A stretch of DNA of 64,000 bases from Synechococcus sp. PCC 6312 (lineage in GTDB: Bacteria; Cyanobacteriota; Cyanobacteriia; Thermosynechococcales; Thermosynechococcaceae): NCBI RefSeq assembly GCF_000316685.1, contig NC_019680.1, forward strand, positions 807,501-871,500, written 5' to 3'. Positions within the stretch are counted from its first letter, which is position 1. Every line of letters starts with the position of its first letter. The notes below the pieces were generated by a model. That model was not told where the DNA came from. It did not search any database and saw nothing but the letters and a program-made list of their open reading frames with translations. Below, in pieces: positions 9,075-39,479 of the stretch. The translations under genes were made by a program, and so were the position numbers.

Positions 9075-9971
9075 CTAAAGCAGGGATAAGCGGGCCTGGT
9101 TGCCATCCAACTCCACCGGCACCCCCACGGGCAAAGCGGCATTTTCGCCATCATGGCCAAAGGGAAGGTCAGCCACCACCGGAATGCCTAGGTCACAGCA
9201 GCGATCCTTCAGAACATCTACCACGGCTAAACTCGGACTTGGGCCGGACGGATCACATTGGCTAAAGCGGCCCAAGGCCAGGCCAACCACCTGCTGAAAT
9301 GCTGGAGTTTGTCGCCATTGGGTCAACATTCGATCCAGCCGATAGGGGGCTTCTCCAACATCTTCTAGGGCTAAGATCACCCGCGACCAGGCCGGTAGTT
9401 GCGGAGTTCCCAATAAATGGGTGGTCACTGTCAAGTTACCCGGCCAAAGCATCCCCTGGACAACCCCACCCACCCAGGCCTCGCCCCGGAGGGGAGGAAC
9501 GGATTGATGTTGAACCAGGTTAAAGAGGCGCTGTTGTGTCCAAAGGGGTTCCGCCGCCAAGGTGGTTAAGACCGGCCCGTGAATTCCAACCACGCCATAA
9601 CTGGCATAGCTCCAGAGGAGAGCGGTAATATCCGAAAAGCCAATTAACCATTTGGGGGAATGTTCCGGCCAGGCCCAGGTTTCAAGTAACCGCGTCGCCC
9701 CAAAGCCGCCCCGCCCACAGAGAATCCCTTTAATGTCTGGATCGAGTAAAACCTCTCGTAACCCTGCCCGGCGTTGGATGTCGGTTCCGGCTAAATAGCC
9801 CCAGGTTTGTGCGCATTGCGAATGGAGATGGACTTGATACCCCTGTTGTTGCCAGAGTTCAATCCCGGCCTGGAATCCAGTTGTCTCCCGTAAGGCCCCA
9901 CTTGGGAGAATCACCGCTAATCTATCCCCAGGCCTTAAGGGGGGTGGAAGCATTGGGGATTGCCAGGCCAC
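9075..9971 (-). CDS. ldcA: LD-carboxypeptidase (peptidase family S66)
   Basis: Removes the terminal D-alanine from muropeptide tetrapeptides in murein recycling. The 298 residues show GDRLAVILPSGA at the N terminus, GRGGFGATRLLE, the serine-bearing IGFSDITALLW, the acidic ALEDVGEAPYRLDRML and the C-terminal PFGHDGENAALPVG with the catalytic His. This matches the Ser-Glu-His triad order of family S66. Translation starts at GTG; the upstream gene's stop TAG overlaps it by one base (TAGTG), suggesting translational coupling with the DUF2808 gene. Confidence 0.88.
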   Translation of the reverse strand: MAWQSPMLPPPLRPGDRLAVILPSGALRETTGFQAGIELWQQQGYQVHLHSQCAQTWGYLAGTDIQRRAGLREVLLDPDIKGILCGRGGFGATRLLETWAWPEHSPKWLIGFSDITALLWSYASYGVVGIHGPVLTTLAAEPLWTQQRLFNLVQHQSVPPLRGEAWVGGVVQGMLWPGNLTVTTHLLGTPQLPAWSRVILALEDVGEAPYRLDRMLTQWRQTPAFQQVVGLALGRFSQCDPSGPSPSLAVVDVLKDRCCDLGIPVVADLPFGHDGENAALPVGVPVELDGNQARLSLL

Positions 9972-10555
9972 TAGCGAGAATCTCCACCCCGATAAAACGT
10001 GAGACGGGCCGTGCCAATGTCTTGACCGATGGCCTGTTCCCCACCCACCGGAAACGCTGTTATCCCAAATTGATAGACTCCATCTAAGGCCGGGTTGCGG
10101 ATTGGGGACAGGGCCAAGGTGACGACTTCACCGGGAGGAATGGGCGGCTGAAAGTTTATCGTTAAATCGTAGGTATTGGGGTTTACGGTGACGGCTCCCA
10201 AGGAAAATTGCGGGCCACGGGGTTGTTTGCCAAAGGCCTGGGTGCGTTCGGGGACAAAGTAAATGGTTTCTTGATTAGTGAGGGGCTTAATCACAACCCG
10301 TTGGAGGGGTTCCCCGGCCTGGGGCGATAGGGACAGGACAAAATAATAGATCGGGTCGGGGTAAAAAACCGTTGGATAGGGGGTCGAAGCGTCATTAAAG
10401 TAGGGCGGCACATCAAAGGCAACACGACCATCGGGAAATTCCACAGCCCCAGCCCCCAATCGGATCAAGAGACTGCCAACTATTCCCAGGCCCAAAACCT
10501 GAGTCAAGGAGCCAATCCCGTTAATCCTGTTTGCGAGATCTGTAAATAGGCCCAT
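9971..10555 (-). CDS. DUF2808 domain protein, probably exported or membrane anchored
   Basis: A cyanobacterial family of unknown function. The N terminus has a hydrophobic helix (LTQVLGLGIVGSLLIRLGAGA) that could be a signal anchor. The conserved part starts VEFPDGRVAFDVPPYF and continues with YYFVLSLSPQAGEPLQRVVI and GEVVTLALSPIRNP. An ATG at 10555 overlaps the furA stop as TAATG, a classic coupling arrangement, so I prefer it to the ATG at 10579. The gene thus sits between furA and ldcA in a tightly packed minus-strand operon. Confidence 0.75.
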   Translation of the reverse strand: MGLFTDLANRINGIGSLTQVLGLGIVGSLLIRLGAGAVEFPDGRVAFDVPPYFNDASTPYPTVFYPDPIYYFVLSLSPQAGEPLQRVVIKPLTNQETIYFVPERTQAFGKQPRGPQFSLGAVTVNPNTYDLTINFQPPIPPGEVVTLALSPIRNPALDGVYQFGITAFPVGGEQAIGQDIGTARLTFYRGGDSR

Positions 10556-21906: not shown

Positions 21907-22014
21907 CTCAAAACACTGCGCCAACCCAAAACAGCCAATCCTGGGAAGGACGATTATCTAGAACCCCTCTTTCCAGAAATTGAGGGTTAAAAAATACTTT
22001 AACTTCTGACCCAG

Positions 22015-22158
22015 TAGCCAGGCCAAGTCCAGGTTGTGTGGAAACTTACTGGATTTCTCCCCTGTATAATCTATTGAGTGAAAACTTGACATTCAGCCTA
22101 AACACCTTATCGTATCGTTCTTTTAAACGGAAACTTTCTGTCTAATCCATAGTTAGGT
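22015..22158 (+). repeat. cassette-flanking repeat, copy A
   Basis: First of four related repeats. It contains the exact 17-mer AACTTGACATTCAGCCT (from 22083) shared by copies B, C and D, an attC-like inner part from GCCTAAAC (22096) and a terminal GTTAGGT (22152-22158). The hydrolase gene follows. Left of 22015 the 110 bases after the VOC gene hold no gene. The rest of the intergenic stretch to 22285 is a leader without further structure that I can see. Confidence 0.72.
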
Positions 22159-26288: not shown

Positions 26289-26460
26289 TTAACAGGCCCA
26301 TTCAAATTTTGGGTAGAACATAGCAGCAATTTGCGGGGCAATCAGATTTGGCCAGGCCTGGTTATGGGCGTTGCATAGTTGGAGGGTGGATGAGAAAAAT
26401 TACAATATCGTCTATCCTTTCCTAAGGTCAATCATTCGAGGGTAGTACCTTAGATTGAAG

Positions 26461-26596
26461 TAGCCAGGCCAAGTCCAGACCAGGCAAAAACTTCCTTTAT
26501 TTTTCTGTGTAATTATTGACTGGAAACTTGACATTCAGCCTCAACGCCTTAGTAGTTCTTTGACACGGGAACCTTCTGCCCAATTCCTTGTTAGGC
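26461..26596 (+). repeat. cassette-flanking repeat, copy B
   Basis: Second copy of the repeat; shares TAGCCAGGCCAAGTCCAG with copy A and AACTTGACATTCAGCCT (from 26525) with all copies, and ends in GTTAGGC (26590-26596). A CCAGGCCTGG lies about 105 bases to its left. It separates the reductase gene from the small pair that follows. The bases 26289-26460 show no gene. Confidence 0.72.
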
Positions 26597-26633: not shown

Positions 26634-26891
26634 GTGAAAGTCACCGAGTACTTTAAATCTGTTTGCCTCAGGCCTGATCGAGTGGAGCTCAAGATAGAGT
26701 GGATAGAAAGTACTATTGAAAGTCCGATAAAAAGAGAGATTCAATTAGATGGAAGGATCAAATGCTGGTCAAAAATAAGAGAGAAAGATAAGTATTTAAG
26801 GGTTATTTTGTTAAAAGATGGGGAAACAGTTCACAACGCTTTTTTTGATAGGGGATTTAAGGAAGAGAAAAATGAAAATTCAATACTTTGA
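26634..26891 (+). CDS. small DUF4258-like protein, candidate toxin of a pair
   Basis: An 85-residue protein starting at GTG 26634. It reads YFKSVCLRPDRVELKIEWIE, then REIQLDGRIKCWSKI, YLRVILLKDGETVHNAFFDR. I recall cyanobacterial proteins with this layout (RPDR..I..EWIE, then GETVHNAFFDRGFK) next to DUF2283 proteins, as here, where the two genes overlap by 20 bases. This arrangement resembles a toxin-antitoxin pair of the kind that stabilises integron arrays. The function is inferred from context only. Confidence 0.62.
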   Translation: MKVTEYFKSVCLRPDRVELKIEWIESTIESPIKREIQLDGRIKCWSKIREKDKYLRVILLKDGETVHNAFFDRGFKEEKNENSIL

Positions 26892-27069
26892 AGATACTGA
26901 CACGTTATACATAACCTTTTCTCAGAAGATTCCAAACGAGACAAGAGAAATTGACGAGAATACTCTACTAGATTTAGACGAAGGCGGACAACTTTGTGGA
27001 ATGACCATTGAACACGCCAAAGATAGAGTGGGTATTCCAGAGGTAAAGTATGAAAAAATTCCCACATAA
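26872..27069 (+). CDS. DUF2283 protein, candidate antitoxin
   Basis: A 65-residue protein starting at ATG 26872 (MKIQYFEDTDTLYITFS). The family signature continues with ENTLLDLDEGGQLCGMTIEHA. DUF2283 proteins often accompany small DUF4258-type partners. It overlaps the upstream gene by 20 bases, which suggests translational coupling. A frame extension upstream to 26818 overlaps the partner too much to be favoured. Confidence 0.8.
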   Translation: MKIQYFEDTDTLYITFSQKIPNETREIDENTLLDLDEGGQLCGMTIEHAKDRVGIPEVKYEKIPT

Positions 27070-27165: not shown

Positions 27166-27196
27166 AGGATCAGATGAGTGTGGGATAAATAACCCT

Positions 27197-27325
27197 GCCA
27201 AATTCAAGCCGGGCCGAAACTTCCTTTATTTTTCCGTGCAACTATTGAGTGACAACTTGACATTCAGCCTAAAAACCTTAAGGATACTTTTAGACAGAAT
27301 TTTTCCACCTAATAGATAGTTAGAC
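27197..27325 (+). repeat. cassette-flanking repeat, copy C
   Basis: Third copy of the repeat. It shares GAAACTTCCTTTATTTTTC-like sequence with copy B and AACTTGACATTCAGCCT (from 27254) with all copies, and ends in GTTAGAC (27319-27325), which fits GTTRRRY. The nuclease-vWA gene starts 52 bases later. Confidence 0.72.
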
Positions 27326-27377
27326 AATTATTTTTTCAAAAAAACTACTTCCTTAATTAGAAGTCTATTTTTATTTC

Positions 27378-29177
27378 ATGCAGAGAAGCAATAGAATGAA
27401 ACCAATCGAAACTGCAAGTGAACTTTATCGCGAGATCAAGAAACGTGGGCTTCATCTTCGCAAAGAAAACGGACGGGACAACTCACTACTTCAGGAGCTT
27501 AAAAATAAGCTTGGGTGCGAAAATCTACGCTTACAGGAATTTTTCGATACAACAGATTTATCTGCTGAAGTCTTTCTGAAGAATTTTCTACAACTGTCTG
27601 CCCCATTTGCTTGCATGTTTAAGGAAATATGGCATTACTTGAACAGCCAATATGCACCGAATGCTACAGAAACTATTTCCGTTCGCTTTGGTTTTGAGGA
27701 CTCGGAAGACCAATGCTCGGTTGATCTAGAACAATTTCGTCGATATGTTGAGACTATTGAACGATTTTTATCCACTGTTACTACCCAACTTTGGCCCCGT
27801 GAAGCTCTCAATAGGCTATTCCATCTTGGTAATGTGTTGATTGATGAAGCAAATGAGCCAACACGGAAGCTTTATAATGAACATGGACGTTATGAGCCTG
27901 GAAAATCTTACAAATTGCCTATTGTAAGCTCCATTGATCATCCTTTTGACAAGATTATCAAGGACATCAGTGAGGTTTTCAAGTGCATCATCGACAGTTA
28001 TGTAGTTGAACAGGAACACCAACGGACAACAAGACAACTCCCAGAACTTAAAGGAAATACGAAAGAATCTGAGGAGCAGATGTCTTTAAGATTATCGACT
28101 TACTTGCTAACAGACTTACTTCCCGTATGGTTTTACATACTAGATAGATATCCTGAAATCAAAAGCAGTGCGAAAGATACTGCTCTTAAAGAATACAAAA
28201 ATAGCGTAGAACCACTCCTTTTATCGAAGGAGAGTATCACTGAATCTGTGCTTTGGGAAGCTCTCGACATTCTTGATCTTCCATTTTGGCGTCATCGGTG
28301 GCATACATACGAAGTTTGGGCTAGTGTGCTGACATTGCAGTCTCTCAAAGCTTACAGACCTACCCTGAGAATTGAAAAAGGGCATGTTGCTCTCGACGGA
28401 TTCTCAGCAGCAGTCGTTGCTGACCTAAAAGCTAGTGATCATAGTTCAGCGTGCCTAGCTGTTCAGGTTGAAACACCTTTCAAGCGGGGAAAACGAAAAG
28501 CAATCAAACCTGATCTAAGAGTTTGTTTCGACAATCCGAAATTGATAGACAATACTGCAGGCGTGGTCGAATTCAAGCAGAGATGGAAAATTAATAGAAA
28601 AGAATTAGAAGAAATGGCCATTGCTTACTCAAGAGGTTGCCCAAAGAGTGGAGGAGTCATAATCCTGAATTATGACAAGACAGACACACCTGTTTCCCTT
28701 CCGCCTAGAGCATATCTCATAGAAGGAGTGCATCCTCAAAACCCAAATAATGTAAAACAATTCCAGCAGCAGCTATTAAAAATCCTGGAGGACGCTGGTT
28801 TAATTCCCATGACTGAAGAGACTGTAGTTCTTCTAGATGTTTCATCAAGCATGGGATATTTGTACCAAGATAGTGAAGTCCAAAAGTACTTGTGCGAACT
28901 TCTAGCTATTCCTTGGATAAAGATTTTTCGTTTTAACGATGGTTTGATTGCGGGAGGAGATATTGATACAGCAATGGCACAAAACCTTACGACGAGTGGA
29001 GGAACACAACTTGGGAAGGCTCTGTTAGACATCGAATCGCTTTTCGGACTACCAACTAAGCTTTTGATCGTAACTGATGGCGAACACGACAACCCAAGGA
29101 AATTTCTGGATCGAATACAGAATGTAAAAGAGTGTTTACCAGGAGAAATCGGAAAAGAAATCCAATGGCTAAGATAG
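27378..29177 (+). CDS. PD-(D/E)XK nuclease-like and vWA domain protein, candidate defence gene
   Basis: I do not recognise this 599-residue protein as a named family, but two domains can be read. Near residues 310-435 there is a nuclease-like core: acidic E312, KPDLRV with D379, and VVEFKQ with E398 and K400, then a helix and GGVIILNYD, the order of PD-(D/E)XK enzymes. Residues 480-575 form a von Willebrand A domain with a full MIDAS: D487-x-S489-x-S491, T543 in SGGTQLG, D567 in VTDGE. The first 300 residues are helical and unassigned. The gene lacks native palindromes, follows repeat C and is followed by an attC, so it is carried as a cassette. Anti-phage or DNA-processing function is inferred only. 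Confidence 0.7.
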   Translation: MQRSNRMKPIETASELYREIKKRGLHLRKENGRDNSLLQELKNKLGCENLRLQEFFDTTDLSAEVFLKNFLQLSAPFACMFKEIWHYLNSQYAPNATETISVRFGFEDSEDQCSVDLEQFRRYVETIERFLSTVTTQLWPREALNRLFHLGNVLIDEANEPTRKLYNEHGRYEPGKSYKLPIVSSIDHPFDKIIKDISEVFKCIIDSYVVEQEHQRTTRQLPELKGNTKESEEQMSLRLSTYLLTDLLPVWFYILDRYPEIKSSAKDTALKEYKNSVEPLLLSKESITESVLWEALDILDLPFWRHRWHTYEVWASVLTLQSLKAYRPTLRIEKGHVALDGFSAAVVADLKASDHSSACLAVQVETPFKRGKRKAIKPDLRVCFDNPKLIDNTAGVVEFKQRWKINRKELEEMAIAYSRGCPKSGGVIILNYDKTDTPVSLPPRAYLIEGVHPQNPNNVKQFQQQLLKILEDAGLIPMTEETVVLLDVSSSMGYLYQDSEVQKYLCELLAIPWIKIFRFNDGLIAGGDIDTAMAQNLTTSGGTQLGKALLDIESLFGLPTKLLIVTDGEHDNPRKFLDRIQNVKECLPGEIGKEIQWLR

Positions 29178-29250
29178 AAATATAAAAAGTTGAGTAAAAA
29201 TTATTTTTGATTCTGTGCTGAATCCTGCTGTCAGGTGAGTATTGTGTTAG

Positions 29251-29337
29251 GTCTAACAATTTGGCTGGAGCGAACTAGCTAAGACCTCTAATGTGGATAT
29301 GTAGGCTACTTACGGCCGCTCAGCCGCAACGTTAGGA
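29251..29337 (+). other. attC recombination site
   Basis: Starts with GTCTAAC (29251-29257) and ends with GTTAGGA (29331-29337). The inner arms GGCTGGAGCG and CGCTCAGCC pair with one unpaired base, the extrahelical-base arrangement that orients attC sites for integron integrases. Length 87 bases. The terminal A departs from GTTRRRY. It lies 74 bases after the nuclease-vWA stop codon. Confidence 0.76.
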
Positions 29338-31214: not shown

Positions 31215-31694
31215 TTAGAGATTGCGGTTGGCATAGTCTCGAATAATGTCATCAATGGCGGTGTCTGGCGTTGCATACTGTCTTCGTTTCTTCAAGGCAG
31301 CAAAATCGTGCTCAATCTTGTTAAAGTCTGGCGAGTATTTGGGTAGGAAGAGCACCTGATGCGCGCATTGGTGGGCAATGTCTCGAATCACATTTTTCCG
31401 GTGAATCGGGGCATTGTCTAAAATCAACACGGACGGGACTTGGAGGGTTGGTAATACCCACTCAGACAGCCATTTCTCAAAACATCCGGCATCAACGCTT
31501 CCCTCAACTACCATGGGGGCTAATAGAGCATCTTTGCATCTGGCCATGAGTAGATTTTCCCGTTTTTCTCGTTTTCCGGTTCTGTCTGCAAAAAGCTTGG
31601 TGCCTCGTTGGGCCCACCCCCAGGGTTGAGAGACTCGGTTGTCAAAGCCACTTTCATCGATGTAAACGAGATGTCTCGACCCCTGTCGCTTCAC
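31215..31694 (-). CDS. IS630 transposase, DDE part (second reading frame)
   Basis: Encodes the catalytic DDE domain: YIDESGFDNRVSQPWGWAQRG with the first Asp and Glu, VLILDNAPIHRK with the second Asp, and LPKYSPDFNKIEHDFAALK with the closing Glu. The real protein is made by joining to the upstream frame at the A8 run (minus strand, 31761-31768). Skipping one base there fuses the two frames and gives KKQQKYRERNPQERQVY between the two domains. Confidence 0.87.
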   Translation of the reverse strand: MKRQGSRHLVYIDESGFDNRVSQPWGWAQRGTKLFADRTGKREKRENLLMARCKDALLAPMVVEGSVDAGCFEKWLSEWVLPTLQVPSVLILDNAPIHRKNVIRDIAHQCAHQVLFLPKYSPDFNKIEHDFAALKKRRQYATPDTAIDDIIRDYANRNL

Positions 31695-32061
31695 AATCTC
31701 CTGTAATTGCTTGAGATAGACTTGACGTTCCTGAGGATTGCGTTCTCGATACTTTTGCTGTTTTTTTTCGGGTAATTTTCATCTGCTTCAGGGCATACCA
31801 AATGGCGTGAATGTTCACCCCGAAATGGGCTGCTCGGTCACAGAGGCGGGCATTGGGGTGGTCTTTAACGTGCTGTTCTAGAACCGCCCAATCGAGCTTG
31901 CGCTGACGACGTTTGACAACGGTGGGACGTAAATCCTCTCGGTTCAACCAGTTATAGACCGTTGCCGGACACACCTGAAACCGACGAGCTGCCTCTGCTT
32001 TGCTGCCACCCTCTTTTACAAAGGTCACGACTCGGGTGCGCAAATCCATGCTGTACGGCAT
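31654..32061 (-). CDS. IS630 transposase, DNA-binding part (first reading frame)
   Basis: Starts at ATG 32061 with MPYSMDLRTRVVTFV, followed by a helix-turn-helix GSKAEAARRFQVCPATVYNWL and a second DNA-binding segment DHPNARLCDRAAHFGVNIHA. After ITRKK the original frame runs out of family sequence; the continuation is in the other frame at a run of eight A. This can be programmed frameshifting or a single-base insertion that inactivates the copy. Confidence 0.83.
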   Translation of the reverse strand: MPYSMDLRTRVVTFVKEGGSKAEAARRFQVCPATVYNWLNREDLRPTVVKRRQRKLDWAVLEQHVKDHPNARLCDRAAHFGVNIHAIWYALKQMKITRKKTAKVSRTQSSGTSSLSQAITGDCEATGVETSRLHR

Positions 32062-37402: not shown

Positions 37403-37564
37403 GTCGCTGAGCTTTCTAGAGGAGATACACACTACCCCTAGCTTTCTGAGTTAATATCCTAATCGGATAAATTTACGGTGATCGATATGGAAGACTGTGA
37501 CTTAAACTAATTTGGGGTATTACGCGGAGATTTCTGCTTTTTAGTCCCTATAGGTAACTTAGGA

Positions 37565-37640
37565 AGAAACTTGACATTCAGCCTAAACACCTTAATAGTT
37601 CTTTTAGAAGGAAACTTTCTGTCTAATCCATTAGCTAGGC
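37565..37640 (+). repeat. cassette-flanking repeat, copy D
   Basis: Fourth copy, far from the others. AACTTGACATTCAGCCT (from 37568) is followed by AAACACCTTA, AGTTCTTTTAGAAGG and GTCTAATCCATTA as in copy A, and it ends in GCTAGGC (37634-37640), one base off GTTRRRY. The methyltransferase gene of an R-M system starts 59 bases later. The remaining intergenic stretch from 37403 holds no gene. Confidence 0.7.
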
Positions 37641-37699: not shown

Positions 37700-38683
37700 A
37701 TGGCCAATAAATCGCATTTCAATAGTGGACACATGGCAATAAATCAATTGAAAAAGAATGGGGCTTTGCATAGTTCAACGATCACAGGAATTTCAACGCC
37801 ACACACGGTTCATGGTGTCTTTATTCAAGATGCAGTTGACTTTTTGAAAGCATTGCCTGATTCATCAGTTCAATTAATACTGATAGATCCGCCATATAAT
37901 CTTGACTTAGACAACTGGGATAGTTTCCATAACTATCTCGATTGGGCAAAAGGGTGGTTGGATCAAATCTGTCGTGTATTATCTGATTCAGGTAACTGTG
38001 TCATTTTTGGAGGCTTTCAATATCAAGATTTAAAGAAGGGAGACCTCCTTGAAGTCCTTCATTATACGCGCCATAAAACAGCTTTACGATTTGTCAACCT
38101 TATCATTTGGTACTACAAGAACGGTATGAGTGCGCATCGCTTTTTTGCCAACAGGCATGAAGAAGCAGTTTGGCTTTCCAAGACGAAGAAATACTATTTC
38201 GATCTGGACTCTGTTAGGGTTCCATTTGATGATGCGACAAAAGAGATGTACAAAAAAGACAAGCGTCTCAATCCCGAAAGTATTGACAAGGGGAAAAACC
38301 CTACAAATGTTTGGGAAATAGGGAGGCTAAATGGCAATTCAACCGAAAGAGTTGGCCATCTAACGCAAAAGCCAGTCGAACTTATCCGGCGTTTTGTTAA
38401 AGCTCTGTCCTTTGAAGGTTCGATAGTCCTTGATTTTTTTGCCGGTTCTGGAACAACAGGGCGTGTTTGCATAGAAGAACGACGGCATTCACTCTTGGTA
38501 GATTCAGATAATAAACTGTACGGTTATTTAGACAAACACATTAGTCAGATTCAACCGAATTTGTTTTTGCCCGAATATCGTCTGATGAAAGACACAAACA
38601 TTAATACCGTACTTGAAGAAATTTCTTGGGTGAATCAACAACTTCCGCAAAATATTCTTGATAAGGACTATTTAAATGAGTAA
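37700..38683 (+). CDS. N6-adenine DNA methyltransferase, M.RsrI-like
   Basis: The 327-residue enzyme is a beta-class methyltransferase: the catalytic motif IV DPPYNLDLDNWD comes before the SAM-binding motif I VLDFFAGSGTTGRV. As I recall M.RsrI, long identical stretches are present: ANRSHHNAGH-like start, NGMSAQRFFANRHEE-like block and KDKRLNPES...NPTNVW. M.RsrI protects GAATTC. The stop overlaps the start of the endonuclease gene by 8 bases, a standard R-M arrangement. The gene lacks native palindromes and lies directly behind repeat D. Confidence 0.95.
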   Translation: MANKSHFNSGHMAINQLKKNGALHSSTITGISTPHTVHGVFIQDAVDFLKALPDSSVQLILIDPPYNLDLDNWDSFHNYLDWAKGWLDQICRVLSDSGNCVIFGGFQYQDLKKGDLLEVLHYTRHKTALRFVNLIIWYYKNGMSAHRFFANRHEEAVWLSKTKKYYFDLDSVRVPFDDATKEMYKKDKRLNPESIDKGKNPTNVWEIGRLNGNSTERVGHLTQKPVELIRRFVKALSFEGSIVLDFFAGSGTTGRVCIEERRHSLLVDSDNKLYGYLDKHISQIQPNLFLPEYRLMKDTNINTVLEEISWVNQQLPQNILDKDYLNE

Positions 38684-39479
38684 AGGACAAGCAAAACGGC
38701 TAACCAAGCAGCACATATCCTCAGGAGGCGTAAGCGGCATCTTTGGCGAAGAGGCCCAGGTACATGATCAGTCTGTTGGTTGTGCAAGTACGAGTGTATT
38801 TGAGGAACTTAAGCGAGAATATCCAAGGTATCAATTTAGATTCAGACAAGCGATCAGCAAACAGGAAATAAATGAGAAGCTAAACTCAATTGACAAGCGA
38901 TTGGGAAAAACTCTCTTCGTAAAAGAGTCAAAAATCAAACCCGATGGAGGAATTATTGAGGTTCAGGACAAAGATAAAAGATGGAGGGTAGTTTTAGTTA
39001 GTGAAGCAAAGTTTCAAGGAAAAGACGTTGAAAATATTAAGGCAGGCGTACTTGTTGGGAAGAAGAAAGATCAAGAATTAATGGTAGCAGGAAACGCTAT
39101 CGAAAGAGTTTACAAAAACATTAATGAAATCAGGAACTTCATGCTCGACGAATATCATTTCCCGTATGCAGTATTCTTGCAAGGCTCAAACTTTGCAACC
39201 GAAACAGTTCAGGTATTTAAACCCGACGGTTCTTTCGTGGAAATTAGACATGATTCAGGTGCAATGAATAGAATTGACAGGGTAACAGCAGCAAATTATT
39301 GTATGAAGATTAATTGTAATTACTGTAAGAATTTTTTTATAGGTCATAAGAATTCGTCAATAATGCTTCAAGCCGCTTCCATTTATGCAAGATGCGAACC
39401 TTGGAAAGAGGATGAAATGCGGAAAATTATGATGGATATTGCAAACACATCCATAGGAATCTTAAATCAGTTGGGATAA
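38676..39479 (+). CDS. type II restriction endonuclease, EcoRI family
   Basis: The 267-residue protein aligns with R.EcoRI, as I remember it, over nearly its whole length: GIFGEEAQVHDQSVG, IKPDGGIIEVQDKD, WRVVLVSEAKFQGKD, GNAIERVYKNINEI, and HKNSSIMLQAASIY. The catalytic triad D90, E110 and K112 is intact, and the recognition segment GNAIER is conserved, so cleavage at GAATTC is predicted. With the upstream methyltransferase it forms a complete R-M system. A GAATTC site lies inside the gene at 39350. The region is AT-rich and free of CCAGGCCTGG. Confidence 0.95.
   Translation: MSKGQAKRLTKQHISSGGVSGIFGEEAQVHDQSVGCASTSVFEELKREYPRYQFRFRQAISKQEINEKLNSIDKRLGKTLFVKESKIKPDGGIIEVQDKDKRWRVVLVSEAKFQGKDVENIKAGVLVGKKKDQELMVAGNAIERVYKNINEIRNFMLDEYHFPYAVFLQGSNFATETVQVFKPDGSFVEIRHDSGAMNRIDRVTAANYCMKINCNYCKNFFIGHKNSSIMLQAASIYARCEPWKEDEMRKIMMDIANTSIGILNQLG

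Follow-up and report, generated by a model that had tools for sequence, protein, structure and literature searches.

The 64-kb stretch of a cyanobacterial chromosome analyzed here (the window, to which coordinates refer; genome of 3.72 Mb in two contigs) contains a gene whose product combines a nuclease-type motif with a vWA domain and which stands alone between a repeat and an attC site. This arrangement raises the questions of whether the gene is an integron cassette and of whether its product may serve in defense, as proposed by the first-pass annotation. The reading frame on the forward strand is open from 27378 to 29177 and codes for 599 aa from the ATG at 27378. The alignments of two relatives, one from Verrucomicrobia (L001) and one from Chloroflexi (L002), begin at the second ATG, at 27396, and GAGAAG is found just 5' of it. 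Since both relatives align from the second methionine, we took 27396 as the start, which is probably the true one and gives a protein of 593 aa. Residue numbers follow the 599-aa count, and 6 is to be subtracted for the shorter form (D379, E398, and K400 become D373, E392, and K394). The features of the locus are compiled in Table 1.

Table 1. Features of the cassette locus, of the dispersed attI copies, and of family members with an alternative C-terminal domain (window positions unless a locus or contig is named)
Feature	Position	Strand	Remarks
attI-type repeat ("repeat C")	27187..27325	+	8-copy genomic repeat; TTGACA box 27257-27262, core GTTAGAC 27319-27325
Gene cassette, 2012 bp	27320..29331	+	attI core to attC core; boundaries G^TTAGAC, G^TTAGGA
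Coding sequence	27396..29177	+	593 aa from likely start; L001, L002 start here
N-terminal region, residues 1-282	27396..28241	+	In all 11 full-length family members; no known family
Nuclease segment (probable fold), residues 283-465	28242..28790	+	LPxWxxRxxxYxxW, PD, ExK motifs invariant
P-D motif, P378-D379	28509..28514	+	Invariant 11/11
E-x-K motif, E398-F-K400	28569..28577	+	Invariant 11/11
vWA domain	28788..29174	+	PHROG_5359 E 1.1e-4; DxSxS at 28836-28850, T543 and D567 downstream
attC, 87 nt	29251..29337	+	GTCTAAC ... TGGCTGGAGCG ... CGCTCAGCC ... GTTAGGA
attI copies in window	22013-22158, 26458-26596, 27187-27325, 37495-37640		
attI copies elsewhere	G000:C1 near 703728, 1005247, 1845288, 2291151		
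DLDLHL-tailed members	L009:1483-3372, L014:1018-2952, L047:8911-10908		

The annotation had put the protein forward as a candidate undescribed defense system, and database searches agree with this: it matched no described defense family in Pfam, NCBIfam, or PADLOC. In Pfam there was no match at the gathering score, the only hit being a sub-threshold one to VWA_CoxE (13.1 bits, cut-off 26.4); NCBIfam gave no match, and no family of the PADLOC library of 2023 matched at E values up to 10. The PHROGs database yielded one unnamed family, PHROG_5359, over the vWA part, and Rfam had no match near the gene. Searches of PDB sequences with family profiles retrieved no credible relative. The sole PDB hit below 0.01, a prefoldin subunit found with a four-row profile (E 0.003), was gone with a seven-row profile and was taken as a chance match.

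The analysis of the gene boundaries confirmed that this is the sole gene between the repeat and the attC and that the unit is a single-gene integron cassette: we observed one ORF only, core sites at both ends, an attC after the gene, and an attI-type site 5' of it. The recombination point of the latter falls after G27319. The attC lies 73 nt past the stop codon and ranks above every other attC-like site in the window, its L''/L' stem comprising 9 bp and one extrahelical base; in shuffled windows, a site of this quality turned up 0.125 times per window. An initial score with looser criteria was dropped because it did not discriminate real sequence from shuffles. Relatives of the 70-nt core of the 5' repeat were found in 26 of 194 cyanobacterial genomes, and in L050, L058, L059, and L061 they lie ~200 to 230 nt from a divergent integrase-like gene. 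The integrases of L050 and L061 are complete (TIGR02249, 470.4 and 458.6 bits; cut-off 265). Because the same element adjoins divergent integron integrase genes in other cyanobacteria, the upstream repeat is a true integron attachment site, attI. Its TTGACA box is very probably the cassette promoter, as judged from attI relatives such as L050, in which TATAGT is located 16 nt past the box; the -10 element is poor in the copy at 27257.

A second copy of the gene is set in similar surroundings. The Verrucomicrobia relative adjoins a frame-shifted integron integrase gene (188 bits; L001:6817-8090, reverse strand) that lacks its C-terminal part, and has an attC-like site behind it (L001:9830-9956). 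Based on the attI and attC at the window copy and on the broken integrase and attC-like site at L001, the gene is firmly established as a genuine integron cassette in two phyla. No integron integrase was found in the genome under study, where the only hit was a partial match of 22 bits on contig C2.

The attI repeat is present in eight copies in this genome, all of which end in GTTAGRC or a close variant. Beyond this point their sequences diverge completely, and each copy precedes different, unrelated genes. To our knowledge, several attI copies scattered over an integrase-free chromosome are unusual, and a literature search on such copies returned nothing that clearly fitted. One copy is directly followed by genes for an EcoRI-family restriction enzyme (PF02963, 467 bits) and an adenine methyltransferase (37700-39476), which form a restriction-modification cassette. 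At another site, a ThsB/TIR protein (L031:336-827, reverse strand; PADLOC ThsB, 252 bits) is encoded by a second cassette, with a 10-bp-stem attC just upstream. Other genes at attI copies code for a DUF6119 protein, an alpha/beta hydrolase, and a short-chain dehydrogenase with a 13-bp-stem attC, among others. Between two attI copies, at 26634-27066, there is a small two-gene cassette for an 85-aa protein with no Pfam match and a DUF2283 protein, a pair that is possibly toxin-antitoxin-like. Elsewhere in the window, two ORFs that overlap in different frames (31215-32061) look, taken together, like an IS630-type transposase.

To the two relatives mentioned above, which share 57% (L001) and 48% (L002) identity with the window protein over the full length and both stem from metagenome-assembled genomes, a Lysinibacillus plasmid relative (L004; 30% identity) was added by tblastn. 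A four-sequence profile then retrieved the distant full-length relatives L009, L010 (phylum of L002), L014, and later L046/L047 (phylum of L001), and tblastn with L010 identified five Rhizobiaceae plasmids, three of which carry full-length copies. L011, L012, L013, and L015 were dropped as members, being generic vWA or unrelated proteins. The family occurs in five phyla, namely, Cyanobacteria, Verrucomicrobiota, Chloroflexota, Bacillota, and Pseudomonadota, and is rare and patchily distributed: it was present in 1 of 386 cyanobacterial genomes and, with unrelated matches removed, in 3 of 350 and 2 of 338 genomes of the other two phyla. No relative was detected in the viral contigs and phage genomes searched. 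The two main groups of the family share 15 to 19% identity, and 17 positions are invariant across the 11 aligned members. Among these are D28, P70, M74, L111, F114, and D240 of the N-terminal region, which is mostly helical according to a low-confidence prediction.

Further invariant positions were observed in the nuclease segment, in which a stretch of the form L-x-x-P-x-W-x-x-R-x-x-x-Y-x-x-W precedes PD...ExK in all 11 members. The catalytic motif of the PD-(D/E)XK superfamily is thereby conserved among the relatives, and the spacing of PD and ExK is as expected for a PD-(D/E)XK active site. E312, also put forward as an active-site residue by the annotation, was rejected, since it is replaced by S or A in 7 of the 11 members and hence not conserved. 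AlphaFold predictions from three sequences reached a pLDDT of 42.8 and a pTM of 0.27 for the full-length protein and, for the nuclease segment alone (183 residues), a low-confidence pLDDT of 46.6 and pTM of 0.52. This weak model of the segment shows a strand-strand-strand-helix-strand order around the motifs. Foldseek found no significant match to it (best E 0.16). Following re-alignment of 1000 Foldseek candidates with VIA-align 2, the best 16 rows had Z scores of 4.8 to 6.0 with this low-confidence query, a range that can mean a shared arrangement only. We take these 16 to be PD-(D/E)XK nucleases (Bax1, VC1899, Cdn1, Can2, BbvCI, EcoT38I, Avs3, and McrC). As Z scores of this size may reflect a shared arrangement and the model is poor, the PD-(D/E)XK (restriction-endonuclease core) fold of the segment is considered probable.

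In the C-terminal domain of the window protein, the MIDAS residues D487, S489, S491, T543, and D567 are all present, so that a nuclease-type motif, with D379, E398, and K400 invariant in 11 of 11 members, and a MIDAS vWA domain are indeed united in one protein, as had been noted initially. DxSxS and the last D are kept in all eight vWA-type members (window, L001, L002, L004, L010, and three rhizobial proteins), and the T543 column in four of them (window, L001, L002, and L004), L010 having a T at an adjacent position. The best E value to VWA_CoxE among family members was 9.6e-5, and the L004 relative carries the annotation "vWA domain-containing protein." In L009, L014, and L047, the vWA domain is replaced by a mutually related domain of ~130 residues that starts with W-x-x-x-P-x-D-L-D-L-H-L. 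It was not recognized by Pfam, and segments of further proteins from Deinococcus and Arsenophonus match it as well; by eye, we presume a likeness to YfaP/DUF2135 domains. A constant core whose last domain is exchanged is a pattern typically seen with the sensors or adaptors of conflict systems. Because this domain is swapped for an unrelated one while the N-terminal region and the nuclease segment stay, it is best read as an exchangeable sensor.

A survey of homolog neighborhoods, which the annotation had suggested as a check, revealed more than housekeeping contexts: five of the eight non-cassette loci (L004, L010, L014, L032/L033, and L036, with L032 and L033 counted as one) are in or beside recognizable defense genes, which lie no more than a few kb away. 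At L004, CBASS cyclase and E1-E2 genes are 4 to 7 kb away, whereas at the locus of L014 (L018) SIR2 and HerA are directly adjacent (320 and 597 bits). The locus of L010 (L017) has a gene for a DpdE-like helicase (812 bits) and one for a DrmMI or type IIG-like methylase on one side and, on the other, an adjacent divergent gene for an AAA_5 McrB-like ATPase and a further gene that, read by eye, presumably codes for McrC. L033 is flanked by IetA-IetS on one side and by Dsr1, a short Argonaute, and its TIR partner on the other, and the annotation of L032 indicates the same layout. L036 is accompanied by a DrmMI-like gene, DrmC (328 bits), and an IetS-like gene. At the remaining three loci, no recognized defense neighbor was found: L002 is flanked by a replication operon and a permease-like gene, L009 (L016) lies among transposases, and L047 near a contig end. 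Directly behind the relative in L002, at 9860-10540, there is an intergenic cluster of imperfect direct repeats (GTGTCTCATCCGCGCCGTG ... GTCACGATGATCGG). The three closest members (window, L001, and L002), from three phyla, are solo genes with unrelated neighbors. Since defense genes cluster together, these neighborhoods are an association and not proof.

We consider it fairly likely that the protein is a stand-alone defense nuclease, carried as an integron cassette and equipped with a sensor-type C-terminal domain. This reading is favored by the presence of PD and ExK among just 17 invariant positions, the C-terminal exchange (8 vWA versus 3 DLDLHL members), the defense neighborhoods, and the EcoRI-type pair and ThsB cassettes at the same attI repeat. 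Points against it are the pLDDT values of 43 to 47, the lack of a Foldseek match below E 0.16, the nonsignificant PDDEXK_7 comparison given below, and the three of eight loci that have no defense neighbor. We infer that D379/E398 and K400 would bind a divalent metal with which the PD-(D/E)XK-type segment cuts nucleic acid, DNA being the most likely target. The MIDAS metal site would allow the vWA domain to bind a protein ligand, and the N-terminal helical region may relay or assemble. The nuclease would be held silent until the C-terminal domain encounters a trigger, either a protein of the invader or a host protein altered by it; such control would be needed because a cassette without methyltransferase or antitoxin would otherwise damage its own host.

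Alternatively, the protein may be half of a larger machine, in which the vWA domain docks on an AAA+ ATPase of the MoxR, McrB, or IetA type from elsewhere that loads or releases the nuclease; in that case, to regard it as a single-gene system would be mistaken. Classically, vWA domains pair with MoxR ATPases and feed effectors (PMC7159879); in addition, the Rhizobium plasmid gene follows IetA-IetS in the same direction, and the McrB-like gene of L017 is a direct neighbor. However, the family has no ATPase gene as a constant neighbor. None lies beside the window copy or L001, L002 has just a DnaC-like gene of the replication operon, L018 has the HerA of the SIR2-HerA pair, and the ATPases seen belong to different families. 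We regard this explanation as unlikely.

In a second alternative, the protein would act directly on phage DNA as a restriction nuclease, either modification-dependent (type IV-like) or sequence-specific, and would use its vWA domain for dimerization and not for sensing. By eye, the order LPxWxxRxxxYxxW ... PD ... ExK recalls PDDEXK_7/McrC-type motifs, McrC was among the structural matches of the low-confidence model, and a modification-dependent enzyme would be safe in a cassette without methyltransferase. But hhalign against PDDEXK_7 was not significant (probability 4.4%, small alignments), PF04411 (PDDEXK_7) matched none of the members scanned, no base-reading domain is recognizable, and the exchange of the C-terminal domain speaks for sensing. 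We regard the restriction reading as rather improbable. A cassette gene for a non-antiviral role, such as DNA repair, plasmid maintenance, or stress, appears quite improbable: most integron cassettes have unknown functions, the first cassettes at the repeat also include the hydrolase and dehydrogenase genes, and three loci are devoid of defense neighbors, but known defense genes lie close by at the other five, and the distribution is as patchy as one cyanobacterial genome in 386. We did not adopt a toxin-antitoxin reading, since the family has no conserved small partner gene.

Returning to the stand-alone defense nuclease, we propose a wider interpretation more tentatively, at somewhat less than even confidence. 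The protein would represent an undescribed family of one-gene antiviral nucleases that spans at least five phyla, keeps its N-terminal region and nuclease as a constant core, and has interchangeable C-terminal sensors (vWA or DLDLHL). The family would move as integron cassettes, and its member here would occupy one of several attI sites that are scattered, lack an integrase, and together act as a dispersed defense bank. If so, it would be a compact transferable effector whose nuclease appears to be gated by a metal-dependent protein-binding domain in the absence of the usual ATPase, and the swappable sensor would make the identity of the trigger directly testable. Integron-borne defense would then reach beyond Vibrio and mobile integrons into cyanobacteria, whose orphan attI copies seem to carry defense cassettes.

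Closest among the described kinds are the MoxR-vWA ternary conflict systems, in which restriction-fold effectors are C-terminal to vWA and a MoxR ATPase with a third protein forms the core (Kaur et al. 2020, PMC7159879). Shared features are the union, in one protein, of a vWA domain with metal-binding aspartates and an effector, which in those systems can be a restriction-fold nuclease and here probably is one, as well as the swapping of domains on a conserved core; a vWA-nuclease fusion, which the annotation had called unusual in a cassette, thus has a precedent, in reversed order. In the present family, by contrast, the nuclease precedes the vWA domain, and neither a MoxR gene nor a third gene is a conserved neighbor: ORF translations revealed neither a MoxR-type AAA+ ATPase nor a third component beside the window copy, L001, or L002. 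Because of the reversed domain order and the MoxR partner not found beside these three copies, the protein was not filed as a MoxR-vWA system. With the McrC/PDDEXK_7 nucleases of type IV restriction it shares, by eye, a Y-x-x-W motif before a PD...K-type site, but it has a vWA or DLDLHL tail in place of DUF2357, and no McrB GTPase partner was found beside the window copy, L001, or L002. CoCoNuT type III-A loci with TerY-like vWA proteins (PMC11090510) also contain nuclease and MIDAS vWA domains in one defense locus, although on separate proteins of a multi-gene operon. By analogy, the nuclease-vWA protein may work like the effector-sensor proteins of conflict systems. As summarized in a review (PMC12409362), integrons are established as antiphage gene stores for Vibrio and mobile integrons. 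The single-gene defense cassettes of Darracq 2025, Kieffer 2025, and Getz 2025, as relayed in PMC12409362 and PMC12444791, resemble the present one in format; they belong to Vibrio and mobile integrons, whereas ours resides in a cyanobacterium, at an integrase-free attI copy, and its family is outside PADLOC, Pfam, and NCBIfam. The nuclease-vWA gene is a new family in the setting of an integron defense store.
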